Source: a virus. Taken from it: a stretch of 20,426 bases of DNA. The notes below the pieces were generated by a model. That model was not told the origin of the DNA. It searched no databases and saw only the letters and a program-made list of their open reading frames with translations. How positions within the stretch are numbered: position 1 is the stretch's first letter; each line of letters begins with the position of its first letter. Below are positions 3,381-13,801 of this stretch, piece after piece. Position numbers and translations under genes: made by a program. The stretch covers positions 1 to 20,426 of the IMG/VR virus record IMGVR_UViG_3300045885_000274. The stretch is one strand, 5' to 3'.

Positions 3381-3557
3381 CTACACTGCTGCTCCGTTGC
3401 GCAGCAACGTTGCGGACGCGTCGCTGCGATTCTCGGCCTTGCGCCAGCTCGCGATGAACGCCTGAGCTTCGCGCTTGGACCTGAATGTATGCAGGCCGGT
3501 CATCCATTGACCGCCCGCGATTCTCACCTGCCACCTCACCTTCAGCGGGGCCTTCAT
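3381..3557 (-). CDS. Small hypothetical protein
   Basis: 58 residues starting MKAPLKVRWQ. The ATG at 3557 overlaps the preceding TGA by one base (TGATG), which decides the start over the longer upstream reading frame that runs antiphase through the preceding gene. It contains a strand-rich start and a helix (SKREAQAFIASWRKA), a pattern seen in small phage proteins with an AP2-like or SPOR-like strand/helix layout. That is only a weak resemblance. It is the last gene before a strong terminator and so is co-transcribed with the 159-residue gene. Confidence 0.65.
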   Translation of the reverse strand: MKAPLKVRWQVRIAGGQWMTGLHTFRSKREAQAFIASWRKAENRSDASATLLRNGAAV

Positions 3558-4036
3558 CACAGCACCCCCAGCATGGCGTAAGGCTCGCTCTTCACCTTCA
3601 TTTGCTCCAGCCGCACGTTGATCGCGGCACGGTCCTCGTTCACGATCTTGCGGAAGGCATCCATGTCGTAGCGCTTCGCGTTCCGGGTCCAATCTTCGAC
3701 TTCAAGCGACTCCTCGGCCCAGCCCTTCGGGCGCTCCGCGTGCTTGACCGAGACCGCGCCAGTGGTGAAGCGGTGCGCGAAGGTCACGTAGTAAACGTGT
3801 TCGATGTCGCCGTGCAGATCGGTGGTCAGGTCATACACCGGGCGCGGCGCAGGCTCGTGGGCTTCCTTCTCGTAGGTCTCGGCCATCATCGCCCGCAGGA
3901 ACGCGCTGGGCGTCTTGTGGACGCCGAGCTTGGTGTAGATGTCGGCCCCGGTCTCGGCGAGGTAGCCGTCATAGTGGCGATACAGGTGGATCACGCTCTT
4001 ACCAGACTTCACAACGATGTTGCATCGGGTGCTCAT
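3557..4036 (-). CDS. Conserved phage hypothetical protein (STRCNI family)
   Basis: 159 residues from the ATG at 4036, chosen because the leader ACAGGAGACAAAGAC sits directly before it; 30 further in-frame codons upstream run through the promoter and operator and are not expected to be translated. The opening MSTRCNIVVKSG followed by IHLYRHYDGYLAETG belongs to a pattern I recall from many phage and bacterial proteins of unknown function. No membrane segment or catalytic signature is evident. It is the first gene of a two-gene leftward unit expressed from the promoter at 4082-4110 and should be controlled by the palindrome inside that promoter. Confidence 0.75.
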   Translation of the reverse strand: MSTRCNIVVKSGKSVIHLYRHYDGYLAETGADIYTKLGVHKTPSAFLRAMMAETYEKEAHEPAPRPVYDLTTDLHGDIEHVYYVTFAHRFTTGAVSVKHAERPKGWAEESLEVEDWTRNAKRYDMDAFRKIVNEDRAAINVRLEQMKVKSEPYAMLGVL

Positions 4037-4081
4037 GTCTTTGTCTCCTGTCAGTTGATTGAAAAGGTCACTACAGGGGAG

Positions 4082-4110
4082 AGTATACGGGAATCCCGTA
4101 GCGAGTGCAA
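4082..4110 (-). promoter_or_regulatory. Leftward promoter with an operator inside its spacer
   Basis: On the minus strand TTGCAC (4105-4110) and TATACT (4082-4087) are 17 bases apart. The 15-bp perfect palindrome TACGGG-N3-CCCGTA (4086-4100) fills most of the spacer, and its last TA is the first TA of the -10 box. A protein bound there would block sigma binding. It drives the 159- and 58-residue genes. Confidence 0.75.
4086..4100. promoter_or_regulatory. Operator palindrome, copy 1
   Basis: TACGGGAATCCCGTA, a perfect 6-3-6 inverted repeat overlapping the leftward -10 box. It is one of three perfect copies within 155 bases. Confidence 0.75.
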
Positions 4111-4172
4111 CGGGAATAGCGCACATCCGGGCGATTCCGGGGGGCCTGAAAAAGCCTTATGGATCAGTGGGC

Positions 4173-4187
4173 TACGGGAAGCCCGTA
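4173..4187. promoter_or_regulatory. Operator palindrome, copy 2 (middle)
   Basis: TACGGGAAGCCCGTA, a perfect 6-3-6 inverted repeat midway between the two divergent promoters. It overlaps a possible rightward -10 (TATACC at 4186-4191) that has no good -35, so it may be an auxiliary site for cooperative binding or looping, or mark a weak promoter. Confidence 0.7.
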
Positions 4188-4214
4188 TACCCCCTCGGGA
4201 GGGGCATTTACCCC

Positions 4215-4243
4215 TTGCGCCACATACGGGTTTCCCGTAGACT
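4215..4243 (+). promoter_or_regulatory. Rightward promoter with an operator inside its spacer
   Basis: TTGCGC (4215-4220) and TAGACT (4238-4243) are 17 bases apart. The palindrome TACGGGTTTCCCGTA (4225-4239) begins four bases after the -35 and shares its final TA with the -10, exactly the geometry of the leftward promoter. It would drive the accessory operon beginning at 4285. Confidence 0.75.
4225..4239. promoter_or_regulatory. Operator palindrome, copy 3
   Basis: TACGGGTTTCCCGTA, a perfect 6-3-6 inverted repeat overlapping the rightward -10 box. Confidence 0.75.
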
Positions 4244-4284
4244 ATGCCCTGCAGTATCCCATTAACCAGACAGGAGACAAGAGC

Positions 4285-4806
4285 ATGAGCAAGAAGGGCA
4301 ACTACTACCGAGTGATGCGCGACGGCTTCGCGATCTACCGCTGCAGCCCGCGCCCCTACGTGAGCGTGAACCTCGCGACGCTGAGCTTCAGCAGCAAGAT
4401 GCTTCCCGGCAACGTGCCGGTCGAGCAGGTCCCGGCCCCGAAGGTGATCCGCGTGAGCGGTGAAGCGTGGGGCACGAAGGTCACCCGCACCTACCTCGAA
4501 GGCGAGCGCCCGGTGACGCACACCGTGGCCTACAAGGGTCGCGGTGGCTGGCTGAACTGGGACAAGGTGAAAGCAGCGGGCAAGGATTCGCTCACCATGG
4601 AAGAGCAGAAGCAATTCATGGAACCGGCGGACCCGAACCACATCAGCTTCGACAACTACAGCTACACCAGCCGCGAGCAGGCAGAGAAGAATGCGGCCTA
4701 CATCCGCGAGAACATCGAGAGCCAGAAGGCGGGCACGCGGCCCGAGTATTCGGGCACCTACTCGATCAATGACGTGCAGGTGGTCGAGCTGAAGGGGCGC
4801 TCGTGA
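4285..4806 (+). CDS. Hypothetical protein, first gene of the rightward accessory operon
   Basis: 173 residues from the ATG at 4285, preceded by the recurrent leader GACAGGAGACAAGAGC; an in-frame extension upstream would run through the promoter and is rejected. It is soluble-looking and mixed alpha/beta, with a Tyr-rich start and a helical stretch (SREQAEKNAAYIRENIESQ) before a C-terminal strand. I do not recognise a family. It is first in the operon controlled by the TACGGG palindromes, so it is probably made strongly when repression is lifted. Confidence 0.7.
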   Translation: MSKKGNYYRVMRDGFAIYRCSPRPYVSVNLATLSFSSKMLPGNVPVEQVPAPKVIRVSGEAWGTKVTRTYLEGERPVTHTVAYKGRGGWLNWDKVKAAGKDSLTMEEQKQFMEPADPNHISFDNYSYTSREQAEKNAAYIRENIESQKAGTRPEYSGTYSINDVQVVELKGRS

Positions 4807-4991
4807 GCGCGAAGAGCAACAGGAAGGCCATCATGAAGCAGGTGATCGCCGAAGCGGCAGCCGGGGCCTTCGTGGCCGAGGCGACCGTCGAGGCGATCAT
4901 CCGAAGCCTGCACGATGGCCTCGACCGGGCGGGCGGCTTCCCGACCACAGTGCAGCGGCTGGAGGACATCCTCCGCTGCTTCGATGACTAA
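4803..4991 (+). CDS. Small hypothetical helical protein
   Basis: 62 residues from a GTG that overlaps the previous stop (GTGA). A second candidate start is the ATG at 4833 with AGGAAGG upstream, giving 52 residues (MKQVIAEAAA). The protein is mostly helical and acidic, ending in RLEDILRCFDD, with no recognisable motif. The next gene begins 17 bases after its stop with its own strong ribosome site. Confidence 0.55.
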   Translation: MSAKSNRKAIMKQVIAEAAAGAFVAEATVEAIIRSLHDGLDRAGGFPTTVQRLEDILRCFDD

Positions 4992-5008
4992 CCAGACAGG
5001 AGACAAGC

Positions 5009-5236
5009 ATGAATCTGAACGCATACACGGATAGCGTGAACCTGCTGATGGATCACGCGCAGCACAACAGCAACCTCGACGCCCGCATCGCGGCCCGCCA
5101 GCGCATCATCGAGCTGGCGGTGTCGCTGCACGCGGTGGTCGAAGCCGACGCGTCGCTCAAGCTCTCGCTCAGCGAGAAGCAGGAGCGGCGTGCGCGTGCG
5201 GCCAAGCTGGTGAAGATCACCACGGAGGGCAAGTGA
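5009..5236 (+). CDS. Small hypothetical helical protein
   Basis: 75 residues, almost all predicted helix (DHAQHNSNLDARIAARQRI and following), with a basic C-terminus. The start is fixed by the repeated leader ACCAGACAGGAGACAAGC directly before the ATG. No family recognised. The separate strong leader inside an operon otherwise made of overlapping genes suggests it is translated at a higher or independent level. Confidence 0.6.
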   Translation: MNLNAYTDSVNLLMDHAQHNSNLDARIAARQRIIELAVSLHAVVEADASLKLSLSEKQERRARAAKLVKITTEGK

Positions 5237-5238
5237 CC

Positions 5239-5556
5239 ATGGGCTACTCATGCACCAGCGCAGCGCTGAGAACGCTGCAGGCGATCAAAGAGACGTGCGG
5301 CGCGGACCTCACCGCGTCCAATGAAGTCCTGCTCTACAAGCGCAAGCGCCTCGCCTTTTTCGAGCGCGGCACCGAGCAGGATGACGGCGCAATAGTGGGC
5401 GAGGTGTTCGACAACTTCGGGCGGCTCGGCGAGTTCCGGATCAACCCGGACGGCACGATCCACCACTTCCCGGGGCTGCTCACATTCGACCGGCGCAAGG
5501 TCGAGTGGATCGTGAAGCAGCCCGATTACACGCCACGCGTGCAGGGGGTGATCTAA
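5239..5556 (+). CDS. Hypothetical protein
   Basis: 105 residues from the ATG at 5239; a GTG at 5233 that overlaps the preceding stop is an alternative. GGAGGG lies just upstream. Residues 30-75 are strand-rich (NEVLLYKRKRLAFFERG, GEVFDNFGRLGEFRINPDG), suggesting a small beta domain. I do not recognise the family. It is joined to the next gene by a TAATG overlap. Confidence 0.6.
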   Translation: MGYSCTSAALRTLQAIKETCGADLTASNEVLLYKRKRLAFFERGTEQDDGAIVGEVFDNFGRLGEFRINPDGTIHHFPGLLTFDRRKVEWIVKQPDYTPRVQGVI

Positions 5557-5801
5557 TGATCCTCGAAATCGCATTAGGCATTGTGGTCGCGGTCATCATT
5601 CTGGCCGCAGCTCGGCCCGTGCTGGGCTTCGTGCTCTACATGATCGCCGAGAGCTTCGAGTCGAAGCCGAAGCAGGCACCGCAGCCGAGGATCGCGCCAG
5701 AGCCGATCACGCGGCGGCAGCTCGTCGGGGCTGGCATCGCGTTCGCGCTGCTCGCGTTCGCGCTCTTCGGGGCCTACGCGGGCTGGTGGGGGCTGTCATG
5801 A
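5556..5801 (+). CDS. Small membrane protein with two transmembrane segments
   Basis: 81 residues. A hydrophobic helix spans about residues 2-30 (LEIALGIVVAVIILAAA and on) and a second about 56-78 (VGAGIAFALLAFALFGAYAG). They are joined by a Pro- and Lys-rich linker carrying the charged residues. Size and topology would also fit a holin or spanin-like accessory, but there is no endolysin nearby, so no function is assigned. The start overlaps the previous stop (TAATG). Confidence 0.6.
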   Translation: MILEIALGIVVAVIILAAARPVLGFVLYMIAESFESKPKQAPQPRIAPEPITRRQLVGAGIAFALLAFALFGAYAGWWGLS

Positions 5802-6214
5802 GGCCGACACTACTGCAGACAGCCCGGGCGGCGGTCGCCGCCGCCGTGGCGGCCTTCGTGATCGCGGGCGTGATCGGATCGAGGGCACACGCGCAGGACA
5901 GGCCGACAACGGTCTACTCCTACTTCACGGGCAACAAGCTCAAGGCGGACATCACTTCAGACGTGGCGACGCTGCGGATACGGGGAACGGCTTATATCCT
6001 CGGCGTCCATGATGCGCTCTCGGTGCTCGATCTGGTCTGCGTGCCGGATGGCGTGACTGGCAATCAGCTCCGCGACGTGATGAAGCTCTACCTTGAGAAC
6101 AACCCGCAGCGGCTTCACTACGTTGCTGCGGATTTGATCGAGACTGCGCTGCTCGAAGCGTGGCCGTGCGAGAAGCAGCCCGCTCGCGTGCGGCCCGGAT
6201 CGGGGAGCTTCTGA
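5798..6214 (+). CDS. Rap1a/Tai-like secreted protein
   Basis: 138 residues from the ATG at 5798 (ATGA overlap). An Arg-bearing start, an Ala/Val-rich hydrophobic core and RAHA before Q33 form a signal peptide cleaved near residue 32. The mature part carries the Rap1a/Tai family pattern: a G-x-A-Y-I-L-G-V-x-D segment, a first Cys in VCVPDGVT, a YL-x-x-(N/H)P segment, and AWPC with the second Cys; the two Cys probably form a disulfide. Known members include Serratia immunity proteins that neutralise type VI peptidoglycan amidase effectors in the periplasm. In a phage it could protect a lysogen or modulate cell-wall enzymes; that is inference. Confidence 0.75.
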   Translation: MRPTLLQTARAAVAAAVAAFVIAGVIGSRAHAQDRPTTVYSYFTGNKLKADITSDVATLRIRGTAYILGVHDALSVLDLVCVPDGVTGNQLRDVMKLYLENNPQRLHYVAADLIETALLEAWPCEKQPARVRPGSGSF

Positions 6215-6411
6215 TGAACAGGCGAGAGCAAGCACTGGCATCAGCCCGGATCGCGGGCTACCACGATGACGGGCGCAGCTTCACGCGGCTGATCGTCGAG
6301 GCCCGCGTCAACCGGCAGGCAATGAATGCGGCATGGATGGACGGCAAGCGTGCGCTCGCCGCAGGCGTCGGCTGCACCTGCCGCGACTGTGCGGCGAAGG
6401 CGGGCGCATGA
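6214..6411 (+). CDS. Small hypothetical protein with CTCRDC motif
   Basis: 65 residues, starting at a TGATG overlap with the previous gene. It is basic and helical, with a C-terminal GCTCRDCAAKAG in which Cys-x-Cys-x-x-Cys could bind a metal. Only three cysteines are visible and there is no nearby fourth ligand, so zinc binding is uncertain. No family recognised. Confidence 0.55.
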   Translation: MNRREQALASARIAGYHDDGRSFTRLIVEARVNRQAMNAAWMDGKRALAAGVGCTCRDCAAKAGA

Positions 6412-6575
6412 GCTACGCGGTCAAGCTCGCGCTCGTGATGGCGGTCGCCGCTTCCACCTACGTGGTGGCGCTCGCCTTCAGCATCGAGCTGGGCATCGAG
6501 TTCTACGTGTTGCCCGTCATCGCCGCGCCCTTCGATGGCGTGGCTGCGATCCTGCGATCCGGAGGTGCATCATGA
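6408..6575 (+). CDS. Small membrane protein
   Basis: 55 residues; the ATG overlaps the previous TGA (ATGA). One long or two short hydrophobic stretches cover residues about 5-45 (VKLALVMAVAASTYVVALAF, then EFYVLPVIAAPF), so inner-membrane location is likely. There is no cysteine and no lipobox. Function unknown. Confidence 0.55.
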   Translation: MSYAVKLALVMAVAASTYVVALAFSIELGIEFYVLPVIAAPFDGVAAILRSGGAS

Positions 6576-6799
6576 GCTACTGCTTCGACACGTTGAGCAA
6601 GGCGTGGCAAACGATCCGGGCGAAGCTGCCCGATGACGTGCGCGACGCGGAGCTGACGCTGCGCTTCGAGTGGCTGCTGGAAGAGCTGCACGAGGCGAAC
6701 CACCGCCTGCGCGACGCGGTGAATCACGATGAGCGCGTAACCAAGTATGCGCGGGCACTCGACCGCGTGCTGACAGGCACACCACAGGAGGACGCATGA
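6572..6799 (+). CDS. Small hypothetical helical protein
   Basis: 75 residues with an ATGA overlap to the previous gene. It is acidic and almost fully helical (AELTLRFEWLLEELHEANHRL), with heptad-like hydrophobic spacing that would suit a coiled-coil dimer. No motif recognised. The stop overlaps the next start. Confidence 0.55.
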   Translation: MSYCFDTLSKAWQTIRAKLPDDVRDAELTLRFEWLLEELHEANHRLRDAVNHDERVTKYARALDRVLTGTPQEDA

Positions 6800-7002
6800 A
6801 GTTCTACCGCGTGGCATTCTGGACCGATGACCAAATCAGCGCAGGCTTCGGCTGGTATACGCGGCGCAAAGACGCCGAGCGCTCGGCCCGGGACAACGGC
6901 AGCGACCCTGCCGAGGACTTGACCGAGGTCGAGGTGCATCCCACGAAAGACGGCATCCTCGCGGCGTTGAGCCGCTGGGCGCGGCACCCCGACAACGGCT
7001 AA
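6796..7002 (+). CDS. Small hypothetical protein
   Basis: 68 residues starting MKFYRVAFWTDD, with ATGA overlap to the upstream gene and CAGGAGG just before it. The order strand, aromatic turn (GFGWYTRRKDAER), helix, strand (TEVEVHPTKDGIL), helix suggests a small alpha/beta fold found in phage proteins of unknown function. The C-terminus (SRWARHPDNG) resembles a tail I associate with such small phage proteins. Confidence 0.6.
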   Translation: MKFYRVAFWTDDQISAGFGWYTRRKDAERSARDNGSDPAEDLTEVEVHPTKDGILAALSRWARHPDNG

Positions 7003-7014
7003 CTGGAGAAACGC

Positions 7015-7206
7015 ATGAAACCGGAACCACTGAAGAGCCGCACCAAGGCCGAGCACACGCAGCAGCAGGCAGCCGAGCTGCTGGGCGTGCCGGTGAGAAC
7101 GTGGCAGGACTGGGAGCACGGGCGCAGCACCATCAGCCCGCAGCTCCTGCGCTTGTATCGCCACCTCGCCGGGATCGAGCGCATCCCGTTCAGGAGCGCG
7201 TCATGA
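7015..7206 (+). CDS. XRE/Cro-type helix-turn-helix protein
   Basis: 63 residues, nearly all one HTH domain: TQQQAAELLGVPVRTWQDWEHG (about 16-37) is the standard XRE scan, turn and recognition segment, with W-x-x-W-E before the next helix. The start has CTGGAGAA upstream. Such proteins bind short palindromes as dimers. Because it lies inside the rightward operon driven from 4215-4243, it is a candidate autoregulator acting on the TACGGG-N3-CCCGTA operators, but nothing in the sequence proves that link. A Cro-like or antitoxin-like role are both possible. Confidence 0.75.
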   Translation: MKPEPLKSRTKAEHTQQQAAELLGVPVRTWQDWEHGRSTISPQLLRLYRHLAGIERIPFRSAS

Positions 7207-7391
7207 GGCTCGACAAGGCAGCAGGTTCGTGCCGACTCTTGAACTACCGCCACCGCTGGGGCAAAGAGCGGCCCCTGCAGTATGGCGTCATCACCGTCCG
7301 TAAGCAGCAGCTCTGCCTCGACTGTGATCGCGTGCGCGTCATCGCCTACACGCGCAGGGGCAATCACGTCGAGGGCTATTTCACCAAGTAG
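7203..7391 (+). CDS. Small hypothetical protein with CLDC motif
   Basis: 62 residues, start overlapping the HTH gene stop (ATGA). Strand-rich and basic (YGVITVRKQQLCLDCDRVRVIAYTRRG), with a C-x-x-C pair at about 42-45 and an earlier single Cys, which might form part of a metal site. No family recognised. Confidence 0.55.
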   Translation: MRLDKAAGSCRLLNYRHRWGKERPLQYGVITVRKQQLCLDCDRVRVIAYTRRGNHVEGYFTK

Positions 7392-7417
7392 GCACCAACC
7401 AGACAGGAGACAACACC

Positions 7418-7579
7418 ATGAAGCGCATCACCGCAGCACTCGTCGCACTCGCTCTATCCCTCAGCGCAGCCTCGGCATTCGCGAGCTGCACCAGCCACAC
7501 GATCCTCGGGCCAAGAGGGCAGATGCTTTTCTGCACCACCTGCTGCTACGGATCGAGCTGCAACACCACCTGCTTCTAA
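7418..7579 (+). CDS. Secreted Cys-rich mini-protein (53 residues)
   Basis: The ATG follows the repeated leader CCAGACAGGAGACAACACC, which strongly supports translation. Residues 1-22 are a signal peptide (MKRITAALVALALSLSAASA-FA), cleaved before S23 or, if treated as an imperfect lipobox (F-A-S-C), before C24. The mature peptide of about 30 residues has six cysteines including a CC pair (C24, C39, C42, C43, C48, C52) and ends NTTCF. Three disulfides in the periplasm are likely. It is the last gene before a terminator. Function unknown; a role in the lysogen envelope or in superinfection is possible but unsupported. Confidence 0.75.
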   Translation: MKRITAALVALALSLSAASAFASCTSHTILGPRGQMLFCTTCCYGSSCNTTCF

Positions 7580-7602
7580 CGCAGCCCGCACCACGATCCA
7601 CA

Positions 7603-7625
7603 GCCCCGCCGAGCGCGGGGCTTTT
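7603..7625 (+). terminator. Rho-independent terminator of the accessory operon
   Basis: A 7-bp perfect stem GCCCCGC/GCGGGGC (7603-7609 with 7615-7621), a 5-base loop and then TTTT. It ends the rightward operon just before the convergent leftward HTH gene. Confidence 0.85.
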
Positions 7626-7629
7626 CATT

Positions 7630-7830
7630 TCAGCGCGGGCAATAGAGCACCACGCGCTTGAGACCCAGCCGCCGCAGGATCGTCGGGCTGGGCTTCTCTT
7701 TGCCACTCATCACGCCGTAGATGAAAGAGCGGTTGACCCGCCACGCTCTTGCGAGAGCGATGACGCGCCCAGCCTCGCGCACCTTCGCCCGCAGCAGCTC
7801 GCGCACGCCGCGCTCATCGTAAGCCTTCAT
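7630..7830 (-). CDS. Small HTH regulator, Cro-like
   Basis: 66 residues from the ATG at 7830 with GGGGGTG upstream; a TTG 12 bases further up is the only longer option. Residues about 18-50 (GRVIALARAWRVNRSFIYGVMSGKEKPS) form a helix-turn-helix with the turn at W-R-V-N and recognition helix S-F-I-Y-G-V, followed by PTILRRLGL, typical of lambda Cro/CI-like DNA-binding folds. It lies downstream of the CI-like gene on the same strand, about 100 bases away, so it is probably expressed with it. It is convergent with the accessory operon. Confidence 0.7.
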   Translation of the reverse strand: MKAYDERGVRELLRAKVREAGRVIALARAWRVNRSFIYGVMSGKEKPSPTILRRLGLKRVVLYCPR

Positions 7831-7840
7831 CGGCACCCCC

Positions 7841-7885
7841 AAAAAAACGGCGACCCGACAGGAGACAAAGCCTGAAGGCCGCCGT
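7841..7885 (-). terminator. Possible weak terminator or leader between the two repressor genes
   Basis: On the minus strand ACGGCG (7880-7885) can pair with CGCCGT (7847-7852) around a 27-base loop, followed by seven T residues just before the ribosome site of the small HTH gene. The stem is short and the loop long, so termination would be partial at best. The loop also contains, on the plus strand, an orphan copy of the repeated leader. Confidence 0.3.
7854..7871 (+). other. Orphan copy of the GACAGGAGACAA translation leader
   Basis: CCCGACAGGAGACAAAGC is the same sequence that precedes several genes here, but no ATG, GTG or TTG follows at proper spacing; only CTG at 7872 does. The reading frame from that CTG runs 44 codons and overlaps the CI-like gene antisense, with poor coding character. 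It may be a remnant of a lost gene. Confidence 0.45.
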
Positions 7886-7929: not shown

Positions 7930-8634
7930 CTACAGGTCGCGCCCCGCGTAGAACACGCGACCCCATACCGTCACCTCATCCTCGCCATAGCTCGGCGCTT
8001 TGCTGTCAGTCCCGGGCGTGAATACCCAGCCGTTGTCGCGCCGCTTCGCCTTGCGCAAAAAGCCCTGAACGCCATCACGGTCACACGCGCGAGCGCGGCC
8101 CTTGCGCTGCAGGAGATAGATCGCGCCCGCTTCCAGCTCCCGCCGCTTCGGATCGCAAAAGGCGAACTCGCCCTCGTGCAGCCACGGCTCCATTACGTCA
8201 TCAGCCACCTGAAAGTAGATTGTGTCCACTGAACACTCCACCGGACAAGGCCGCAGAACTTCATCAATGCGCTTGGTGAGGTCGCCGAGTCCAACACGCG
8301 GCACAAGCCGGTAGGTGCGAGTGGTGCCGTTGAGTGAATTAACCATGAACTCGGTCTCCTGACGTAGCGCGTTCTTCCCTGCATTATCGAGCGCCAACTG
8401 TTTCAACTTCAGCTTCCCCTCTATGAAGCGTGCGGTGTCCTCCCCAATCGCACGGAACGCATGCAGCAACTGCCACAGGTAAGCGTCCGACCGCCCAATC
8501 TCCCGGGCGAGCTTCGCAGAGTTCCCCTTGTATCGAACCTTCACCAGCTCCTTCAAATTGTTGAGCCTAGTCTTGTGAATCGCCTTCGTTGACGGCGCAC
8601 GGCCACCTCGCGCCCGCTCAGTCCTCGGTGTCAC
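7930..8634 (-). CDS. CI-like repressor with inactive S24 peptidase domain
   Basis: 234 residues from a GTG at 8634, placed by the leader GACAGGGGACATAACC. Residues about 22-75 are an HTH domain (SAKLAREIGRSDAYLWQLLHA with helices 2-3). Residues about 120-234 follow the LexA/CI S24 layout: VADDVMEPWLHEGEFAF at 143-159 matches the usual GDSMEP-x-L-x-x-G-D block, then AIYLLQRKG, a basic strand pair and the terminal V-x-G-R-V. The catalytic Ser position is V147, and the expected Lys (near FLRK, 192-195) also appears replaced. It should therefore dimerise but not self-cleave, so induction would need an antirepressor or another route. Divergent from the Cro-like gene. Confidence 0.85.
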   Translation of the reverse strand: MTPRTERARGGRAPSTKAIHKTRLNNLKELVKVRYKGNSAKLAREIGRSDAYLWQLLHAFRAIGEDTARFIEGKLKLKQLALDNAGKNALRQETEFMVNSLNGTTRTYRLVPRVGLGDLTKRIDEVLRPCPVECSVDTIYFQVADDVMEPWLHEGEFAFCDPKRRELEAGAIYLLQRKGRARACDRDGVQGFLRKAKRRDNGWVFTPGTDSKAPSYGEDEVTVWGRVFYAGRDL

Positions 8635-8676
8635 GGTTATGTCCCCTGTCAGTGAGTGAATCGGATCAACGTCTTG

Positions 8677-8688
8677 TAGCTCCTGCCT
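8677..8688. promoter_or_regulatory. Operator-like site O1 in the repressor control region
   Basis: TAGCTCCTGCCT, carrying the half-site TAGCTCC (GGAGCTA on the other strand). It lies in the 5' leader of the CI-like gene, downstream of its promoter. Confidence 0.5.
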
Positions 8689-8699
8689 GAGTGCAGCAT

Positions 8700-8711
8700 T
8701 AGCGGGAGCTA
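8700..8711. promoter_or_regulatory. Operator-like site O2, TAGC-N4-GCTA
   Basis: TAGCGGGAGCTA is a palindrome with a 4-base centre, located just after the -10 box of the leftward repressor promoter, at its expected start site. With O1 it forms a larger inverted repeat, TAGCTCCTGC against GCGGGAGCTA. Confidence 0.55.
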
Positions 8712-8715
8712 ATGG

Positions 8716-8746
8716 ATTATACGACAGGGGTGCAAGCTGGAGTCAA
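8716..8746 (-). promoter_or_regulatory. Repressor maintenance promoter, leftward
   Basis: On the minus strand a consensus TATAAT (8716-8721) is preceded by TTGACT (8741-8746) with a long 19-base spacer. Transcription would begin near 8709 and run to the CI-like gene. The long spacer may make it dependent on an activator. Confidence 0.6.
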
Positions 8747-8803
8747 CACCCCCGGGGGCCACGATCCAGTGCGATCCGAGAACGTCCGAGCCGGGGACTT
8801 TAC

Positions 8804-8832
8804 TTGCATTCAGATCGCGCCGGAGCTATTGT
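8804..8832 (+). promoter_or_regulatory. Rightward early promoter for cro-like and replication genes
   Basis: TTGCAT (8804-8809) and TATTGT (8827-8832) are separated by 17 bases. A third GGAGCTA half-site (8822-8828) overlaps the -10, as expected for a repressor-controlled early promoter. The transcript would begin around 8839. Confidence 0.65.
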
Positions 8833-8874
8833 TCGATCCCTGACTTCGGCTACACCTCGGGGGAGGATCGAACC

Positions 8875-9243
8875 ATGAAACGCTCACGACGCGCAGGCAC
8901 GAAGAGCTACACGCGCACGGGATTCGGGCGGCCACGCTATCCCGTGGTGGAGAGCCTGCAGCGCTTCCTGAAAGCCTACGGGCACGGCTCCGAGGGCAAC
9001 ACGTCACGCGCACACTTCGCCGAGCGCGTGGGCACCTCAGTGGATTATCTCTTGCAGCTCGGCCTCGGCTTCCGGCAGGCGAGCATGGAGCTGGCGGTGC
9101 GGATCGAGCGAGCAAGCCATGGGCTGATCCGGGCCGAAGAGCTTGCCCCCGGGGGCGACTGGGCCTACCTCGCAGCGCGGATTCCCGATCCGCTGAAGCG
9201 GCGACGCAAGAGCACACGAGCCACCGAACGCGCAACGGCGTGA
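8875..9243 (+). CDS. Cro/YdaS-like HTH regulator
   Basis: 122 residues; the ATG follows GGGGGAGGATC. A basic N-terminus (MKRSRRAGTKSYTRTG) precedes an HTH of the YdaS/Cro type at about 43-85: SRAHFAERVGTSVDYLLQLG with the turn at V-G-T-S, then SMELAVRIERASHGLIRAEEL, the helix that in YdaS-like proteins leads to an L-x-P segment. The C-terminus is Arg/Lys-rich. Position opposite the CI-like gene and directly before the replication gene is the classic cro place, so it probably represses the repressor promoter. The gene is followed by the initiator after 10 bases. Confidence 0.75.
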   Translation: MKRSRRAGTKSYTRTGFGRPRYPVVESLQRFLKAYGHGSEGNTSRAHFAERVGTSVDYLLQLGLGFRQASMELAVRIERASHGLIRAEELAPGGDWAYLAARIPDPLKRRRKSTRATERATA

Positions 9244-11743: not shown

Positions 11744-11976
11744 ACGAGCCGACGATTGTGCGCGAGCCTTACGTGATCATGTTCAAGGTCGAGGGCGCGG
11801 TGGTGTGTCACCTCTATCCGCACGACCTCGATTATCGTGGCTACGGGCTTCTCGTATGCGATCTGGTGCGCCACGTCGCGAATCACTTCGGCGTTGATGA
11901 AGAGGCGGTATGGGGCTGGGTTGAGCGCGAGCGTGATAGACCAACGACGAAACTTCAAGGAGGGCATCCGTCATGA
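11740..11976 (+). CDS. Conserved small phage protein
   Basis: 78 residues with ATGA overlap. The core DLDYRGYGLLVCDLVRHVANHFGVDEEAVWGWVERER is a strongly conserved-looking helical block I associate with phage accessory proteins of unknown role. One Cys and an acidic patch; no catalytic motif. An imperfect TACGGG palindrome inside the gene is noted separately and is not considered an operator. Confidence 0.65.
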   Translation: MNEPTIVREPYVIMFKVEGAVVCHLYPHDLDYRGYGLLVCDLVRHVANHFGVDEEAVWGWVERERDRPTTKLQGGHPS

Positions 11977-13379: not shown

Positions 13380-13760
13380 CTACTTCATGAAGCCGGGTCT
13401 CAAGCCCGCCGCCATGCGCTCCTCGGCGATGCGCTTGCCGTGACGGCTTCGCACTTGCTTCGTGAGCGAAGTGCGCTGGCGGTCAATCGCTGCGAGCACC
13501 TTGGTCGGCAGGATGTAGCGCACGCTCCCGTTCGCATCGGCCTGCATCACGAAGGTGGTGACGCCTTCCTCGGACTTCACCGATTGAATGTTGTAGGTGG
13601 TCACGTTGCCGTAGAAGTCAATGTGCTGCACGGCTGCGAGCTTGGTGTGCGCCCCGTTTGGCAGCCCGATCAGGCTCGACAACAGCTTGTCGAACGGATC
13701 GGTGGGACGTGATGCGGTCACCTTGTGCGGCGTGCTGCTTCGACTCTCTTCTGCTTCCAT
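13380..13760 (-). CDS. Conserved phage hypothetical protein, single-gene leftward unit
   Basis: 126 residues; the ATG at 13760 follows AACTGACAGGAGACTAGAAAC, the same leader as the gene at 4036. The central part (HIDFYGNVTTYNIQSVKSEEGVTTFVMQADANGSVRYILPTKV) is strand-rich and followed by a basic helix (IDRQRTSLTKQVRSRHGKRIAEERMAAGLRPGF). This FYG-V-TTY...RQR...PGF pattern occurs in phage proteins of unknown function. It is opposite to its neighbours, has its own promoter and terminator, and carries an operator-like palindrome upstream, so it may be expressed in a different phase from the flanking operons, as a moron-like gene would be. Confidence 0.7.
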   Translation of the reverse strand: MEAEESRSSTPHKVTASRPTDPFDKLLSSLIGLPNGAHTKLAAVQHIDFYGNVTTYNIQSVKSEEGVTTFVMQADANGSVRYILPTKVLAAIDRQRTSLTKQVRSRHGKRIAEERMAAGLRPGFMK

Positions 13761-13786: not shown

Positions 13787-13801
13787 TACGGATACCCCGT
13801 A
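13787..13801. promoter_or_regulatory. Operator palindrome, copy 4 (one mismatch)
   Basis: TACGGATACCCCGTA, the TACGGG-N3-CCCGTA palindrome with one changed base. It lies in the leader of the 126-residue leftward gene, between the TATAAT at 13827-13832 and the ribosome site. Confidence 0.6.

Follow-up and report, generated by a model that had tools for sequence, protein, structure and literature searches.

A predicted XRE autorepressor and its operators between two divergent units of a phage accessory region

In the window, by which is meant the whole 20,426-nt stretch of phage DNA analyzed here (IMG/VR record IMGVR_UViG_3300045885_000274), two gene units diverge from a control region that carries three perfect copies of a 15-bp palindrome. 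With a probability of roughly 0.8, these palindromes serve as operators bound by a protein that the phage itself encodes, the 63-aa XRE helix-turn-helix (HTH) protein of 7015-7206 on the plus strand (recognition helix VPVRTWQDWEHGR), which is predicted to repress both units jointly. The preliminary description of this DNA had read the palindromes as operators that place both divergent units under one control, and the analysis supports that reading for what are predicted operators. Judged from sequence, the system is real, functional-looking and mostly explained, and it appears to be a new form of autorepression on the known Aca/HigA-like pattern.

The palindrome TACGGG-N3-CCCGTA (TACGGGNNNCCCGTA) occurs as O1 (TACGGGAATCCCGTA, 4086-4100) within the spacer of the leftward promoter, as the middle copy O2 (TACGGGAAGCCCGTA, 4173-4187) and as O3 (TACGGGTTTCCCGTA, 4225-4239) within the spacer of the rightward promoter, no strand being assigned to any of them. 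No further exact copy is present in the window, and the chance expectation is 0.0024 exact copies per window at 64.6% GC. All three had been reported as perfect 15-bp palindromes and are confirmed at these coordinates. The third copy, said to lie midway, is indeed perfect, but it does not occupy the exact midpoint, since its distances to the neighboring palindromes are 72 and 37 bp. A -10-like TATACC is present at O2, and a -35 is absent. Two sites with a single mismatch were also considered. The site at 13787-13801 on the minus strand (TACGGGGTATCCGTA) belongs to the leader that precedes the leftward gene 13380-13760, and its assignment as a candidate fourth operator is suggestive only; this gene and the leftward unit have the leader AACTGACAGGAGAC in common. 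The site at 11842 falls within a coding ORF and is attributed to chance.

The leftward promoter (PL, 4082-4110, minus strand) consists of the -35 hexamer TTGCAC at 4105-4110, a 17-bp spacer and the -10 hexamer TATACT at 4082-4087, so that the order is TTGCAC, TCGC, palindrome, TATACT. The rightward promoter (PR, 4215-4243, plus strand) likewise has TTGCGC at 4215-4220, a 17-bp spacer and TAGACT at 4238-4243, in the order TTGCGC, CACA, palindrome, TAGACT. In both, the palindrome begins 4 bases past the -35 and its TA doubles as the start of the -10, and the 17-base spacers, the 4-base offset and the TA common to the -10 are thus as originally described. Both -35 hexamers are weak, matching the consensus at 3 of 6 positions, and for this reason neither PL nor PR was called by a sigma-70 scan. 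The promoters and leaders of the two units (4030-4114 and 4211-4291) look like inverted copies of each other, with 76% identity over 45 nt and 78% over 32 nt. A conserved element, TGATCCATAAGGCTTTTT, adjoins O2 at 4149-4166 on the minus strand; its form across the window and two related phages is TTGAT(T/C)CATAAGGCTTTTT (about 4645-4663 in L049 and about 3373-3390 in L050), and in the window and the relatives alike it runs opposite to the units.

The leftward unit begins with a gene for a 159-aa protein (3557-4036, minus strand; MSTRCNIVV...), of which a 46% identical homolog occupies the equivalent place in L049. It continues with a second small gene (3381-3557, minus strand) and is closed by a strong intrinsic terminator (3359-3333, minus strand), which bears out the proposal that this unit has two genes. 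A promoter-like TTGACG-N18-TAGGAT at 3318-3289 is separate from the leftward unit and could serve the RecE-like exonuclease operon. The rightward accessory operon runs from 4285 to 7579 and comprises about a dozen small genes, hardly any of which has a known family. Its first gene (4285-4806, plus strand) encodes a 173-aa protein with a 40% homolog in L050, where it is the first gene of the leftward unit, and this exchange of lead genes suggests that the leftward and rightward units may be interchangeable in their control. Family matches are nearly absent among the small genes that follow (4803-7002, plus strand); 5798-6214 encodes an immunity protein of the Rap1a type (Pfam E = 1.2e-15), which begins with a stretch resembling a signal sequence. 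PR and the intrinsic terminator at 7602-7622 (plus strand) enclose the gene of the predicted repressor, which comes late in the operon and is followed by two small genes (7203-7391 and 7418-7579, plus strand). Beyond the operon are CI (7930-8634) and a Cro-like protein (8875-9243). A leader, ACCAGACAGGAGACAA, recurs before several genes (4266, 4992, 7399 and 7854) and in reverse at 4041, and the copy at 7854 has no obvious ORF behind it.

The same operator occurs in other genomes at a preferred position. A scan for TTGACA followed after 0-20 bases by the palindrome returned 74 GTDB genomic and 12 viral loci. The offset was 3 or 4 bases in 35 of the 74 GTDB matches, where about 7 would be expected from a uniform distribution (P about 6e-17), and all 12 viral matches fell at offsets 1-4. 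One family of XRE antitoxins was encoded within 2 kb of 38 of the 45 loci at offsets 3-5 and of none of the 29 at offsets of at least 6 (Fisher 3e-14), the off-peak loci acting as an internal negative control. These P values are somewhat optimistic because some loci are near-duplicates (e.g., L015 and L107). Among the toxins at the operator loci are BrnT, HicA and RelE types. An exact-geometry scan of viral contigs found 35 loci, several of them with consensus promoters beside toxin-antitoxin (TA) genes. On one phage contig (L004:10081-10530), divergent promoters carry near-identical operators in their spacers, accompanied by hicA and a gene of the XRE type; as many as four operator sites lie there in about 400 bp. 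Paired exact operators at 20-50 and 60-90 bp were absent from the viral contigs, and thus that collection yielded no second instance of the exact triple. Additionally, when the whole window was compared with named phages by megablast there was no match, the left-hand protein retrieved nothing when used as bait in the viral contigs, and a search of the open literature for the palindrome yielded no relevant paper. A conserved AT-rich viral group (L005, L010, L011, L013, L014 and others) contains TACGGGAATCCCGTA in one fixed sequence context, which lacks an obvious consensus promoter.

A profile built from the operator-linked antitoxins (the loci at offsets 3-5), with the window left out, was compared with the ORFs of the window, which is a fragment of the phage. 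The protein of 7015-7206 scored 38.6 bits (E = 1.2e-11) and the next ORF only E = 0.4, so that one of the four candidate binders proposed earlier is clearly singled out. Applied to 265 kb of control sequence (33 loci), the profile found nothing below its inclusion threshold except HTH proteins belonging to this group. In an alignment of 16 proteins, R9, T29, D32, W33 and E34 are invariant and R37 is nearly so. The structure model is a confident four-helix HTH (pLDDT 93.6), and the protein consists of the HTH alone, with no extra toxin-neutralising domain. The top Foldseek match is Aca10 (E 0.017), with HigA2 and MqsA also listed, although a fold of this small size gives only weak structural E-values. 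Aca10 (PDB 7XI5) is also the top PDB match by sequence, at a weak phmmer E of 0.0025, and Pfam MqsA_antitoxin and TIGR03830 match below the cut-off. Family searches with the neighbors 6796-7002 and 7203-7391 gave no match to a toxin family, and the HTH protein was absent from 369 genomes of one class in which it was sought.

Two related phages and a further HTH homolog provide additional evidence. L049 and L050 resemble the window phage in RecE (64-65%) and in the HTH protein (61-63%), and they possess CI and Cro homologs. Both have divergent promoters between a leftward unit and the HTH operon, each promoter carrying the palindrome GCACA-N5-TGTGC, which begins exactly 4 nt after the -35, the same offset as in the window. 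The left promoter of L049 is TTGACA-cgag-GCACATATCCTGTGC-TATGAT and the right one TTGACC-gtgg-GCACATGATCTGTGC-TATGAT, with L050 arranged likewise; the distance from -35 to -10 is 19 in these phages vs. 17 in the window. Both phages also have a middle copy, at 4625 in L049 and 3353 in L050, which carries one mismatch and adjoins the element TTGATTCATAAGGCTTTTT; this element likewise stands beside the middle operator of the window. A third HTH homolog (64%) occurs in L048, where TTGACA-cag-GCACGGAATCCGTGC precedes a two-gene operon in which the HTH gene is last. The segment R28-T-W-Q-D-W-E34 is identical in the four HTH proteins, while positions 26-27 and 35-38 differ, and R37 is missing in all three HTHs with GCAC sites. 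The layout whose conservation was in question is therefore kept in L049 and L050 in geometry and position, with its letters altered. All sites have changed together with the HTH protein and its recognition helix, as would be expected if that protein binds them, and on this comparison the related phages appear to have kept the layout while site and repressor changed together. The closest HTH homologs use another operator, so it is the wider antitoxin family and this co-change that link protein to operator in the window.

The identity of the binder nevertheless has to be weighed against other readings. In Proteobacteria, chromosomal TA operons (L075, L102 and L103) apparently have the identical 15-mer TACGGGATTCCCGTA as their operator, and the phage might therefore have borrowed a TA operator whose main binder is a host antitoxin of the HigA-like or NadS-like XRE type, the TA status of the host then controlling the accessory genes. 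This is improbable, in that the phage encodes a matching HTH protein within the controlled operon and the operators of L049 and L050 changed together with the phage HTH. CI, the Cro-like protein and a 70-aa HTH protein (7630-7842) are all nearby HTH-type regulators, and binding by one of them would make the palindromes an outlying element of the lysogeny switch. The antitoxin profile, however, gives no score for any of the three, and the cI/cro intergenic region (8634-8875) contains no match to the palindrome at up to 3 mismatches. Palindromes are likewise absent from the cI/cro region of L049 and L050, whose operators lie outside it, and a role for these regulators is accordingly given a low probability. 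The same observations uphold the earlier view that the operators are separate from cI/cro and that the phage has two regulatory circuits.

The palindromes could also be chance repeats or hairpins, such as terminators or parts of a duplicated promoter cassette, and the leader regions do look like inverted copies over 45 and 32 nt, so that two of the copies could stem from a duplication. Terminators and RNA hairpins were rejected because the two promoter sites lack a T-run and precede the predicted starts. L049 and L050 moreover keep the spacer position although the letters differ, and the palindrome concentrates 3-4 bases after TTGACA in unrelated genomes, all of which makes an origin as hairpins or chance repeats highly improbable.

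If the 63-aa protein is the repressor, we infer that one dimer would bind each 15-bp site. Two of the sites take up the promoter spacers and reach into the -10, so that bound repressor would exclude RNA polymerase from PL and PR alike. The earliest transcripts of an infection would give rise to the accessory proteins and the repressor, and accumulation of the latter would then turn off both units, the leftward one with its two genes and the rightward operon with the repressor's own gene. The middle site may aid occupancy. Such a circuit would run alongside CI/Cro in the manner of Aca and HigA autorepression. Since the two promoters have identical operators in equivalent positions, a single repressor should silence them jointly; the term "switch" used in the preliminary description is not supported, as there is no sign of mutual exclusion or of two stable states.

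By fold, the closest known system is Aca10 (PDB 7XI5). Aca proteins of ten families repress promoters that carry such inverted repeats (PMC9410906), with Aca10 as one worked example (PMC9410881). As in the window, a small dimer-type HTH protein is encoded in a phage accessory operon and an inverted repeat lies in the core promoter (PMC9410906, PMC9410881). Aca10 is, however, only 35% identical to the protein of 7015-7206 and its operator, ATACGCTCATTGAGCGTAT, differs from that of the window, where the circuit is predicted to control two divergent units and includes a middle site. Moreover, the window operon contains no recognised known anti-CRISPR gene, its genes being nearly all without a family match. 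In Vibrio cholerae higBA2, HigA2 is similarly an XRE HTH protein with an operator between -35 and -10: TGTACGC-N5-GCGTACA starts after the -35 and extends over the -10, and the bases are contacted by Arg68, Glu71, Asn72 and Arg77 (PMC11006873). The two operators have TACG-N7-CGTA in common, and residues 68, 71, 72 and 77 of HigA2 align with R28, Q31, D32 and R37 of the window protein. HigA2 differs in possessing a disordered N-terminal toxin-neutralising region and a toxin partner, whereas the window protein is an HTH alone and no toxin is recognised in its operon. The BrnT, HicA and RelE operons with XRE antitoxins (L015, L030, L033, L075 and L004) resemble the window in operator sequence and promoter position, but they are toxin-antitoxin pairs, whereas in the window operon many small genes follow one another. 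MqsA of E. coli has a related HTH domain, together with a zinc domain that the window protein lacks, and it recognises a different palindrome. In lambda-type CI/Cro systems, repressor sites also lie between divergent phage promoters. In contrast, a single repressor in the window is predicted to act on both promoters from within the spacer, in a control region of its own and without an opposed pair of regulators.

These comparisons define a second regulatory circuit in these phages and name its likely repressor, and they mark two blocks of small genes as probably under joint control. Blocks under an Aca-like repressor have earlier been a source of anti-defence genes. Because the operators of the phage and of common bacterial TA modules are alike letter for letter, the phage repressor may act at host TA promoters and host antitoxins at those of the phage; this is a speculative and rather unlikely extension, which the common operator makes directly testable. 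If it is true, infection could disturb host TA modules, or a host antitoxin could silence accessory, possibly anti-defence, genes of the phage.

The operators also bear on how this HTH family chooses its sites. In a protein-side search, 7 of 37 loci of the HTH family in viral contigs had a TACGGG site nearby, and thus family membership alone is insufficient to fix the operator. In the promoter spacers of viral family members, TACGGC-N3-GCCGTA stands beside VSVRTLQDWEQGRR proteins and TACGGG-N3-CCCGTA beside TPVATLRDWEQGR proteins, a sister operator pointing to a possible specificity code. A code of one residue, with P26 for TACGGG and S26 for TACGGC, fits the protein-side set and was rejected on account of L008, L101 and L004, which break it. 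Operator, promoter position and recognition helix covary across phages and TA operons with TACGGG, TACGGC and GCAC sites, and this set is ready-made material on the choice of DNA by small XRE repressors. The sister operator was observed in promoter spacers at L130, L131, L136-L146 and L155, mostly by XRE genes of the VSVRTLQDWEQGRR type.
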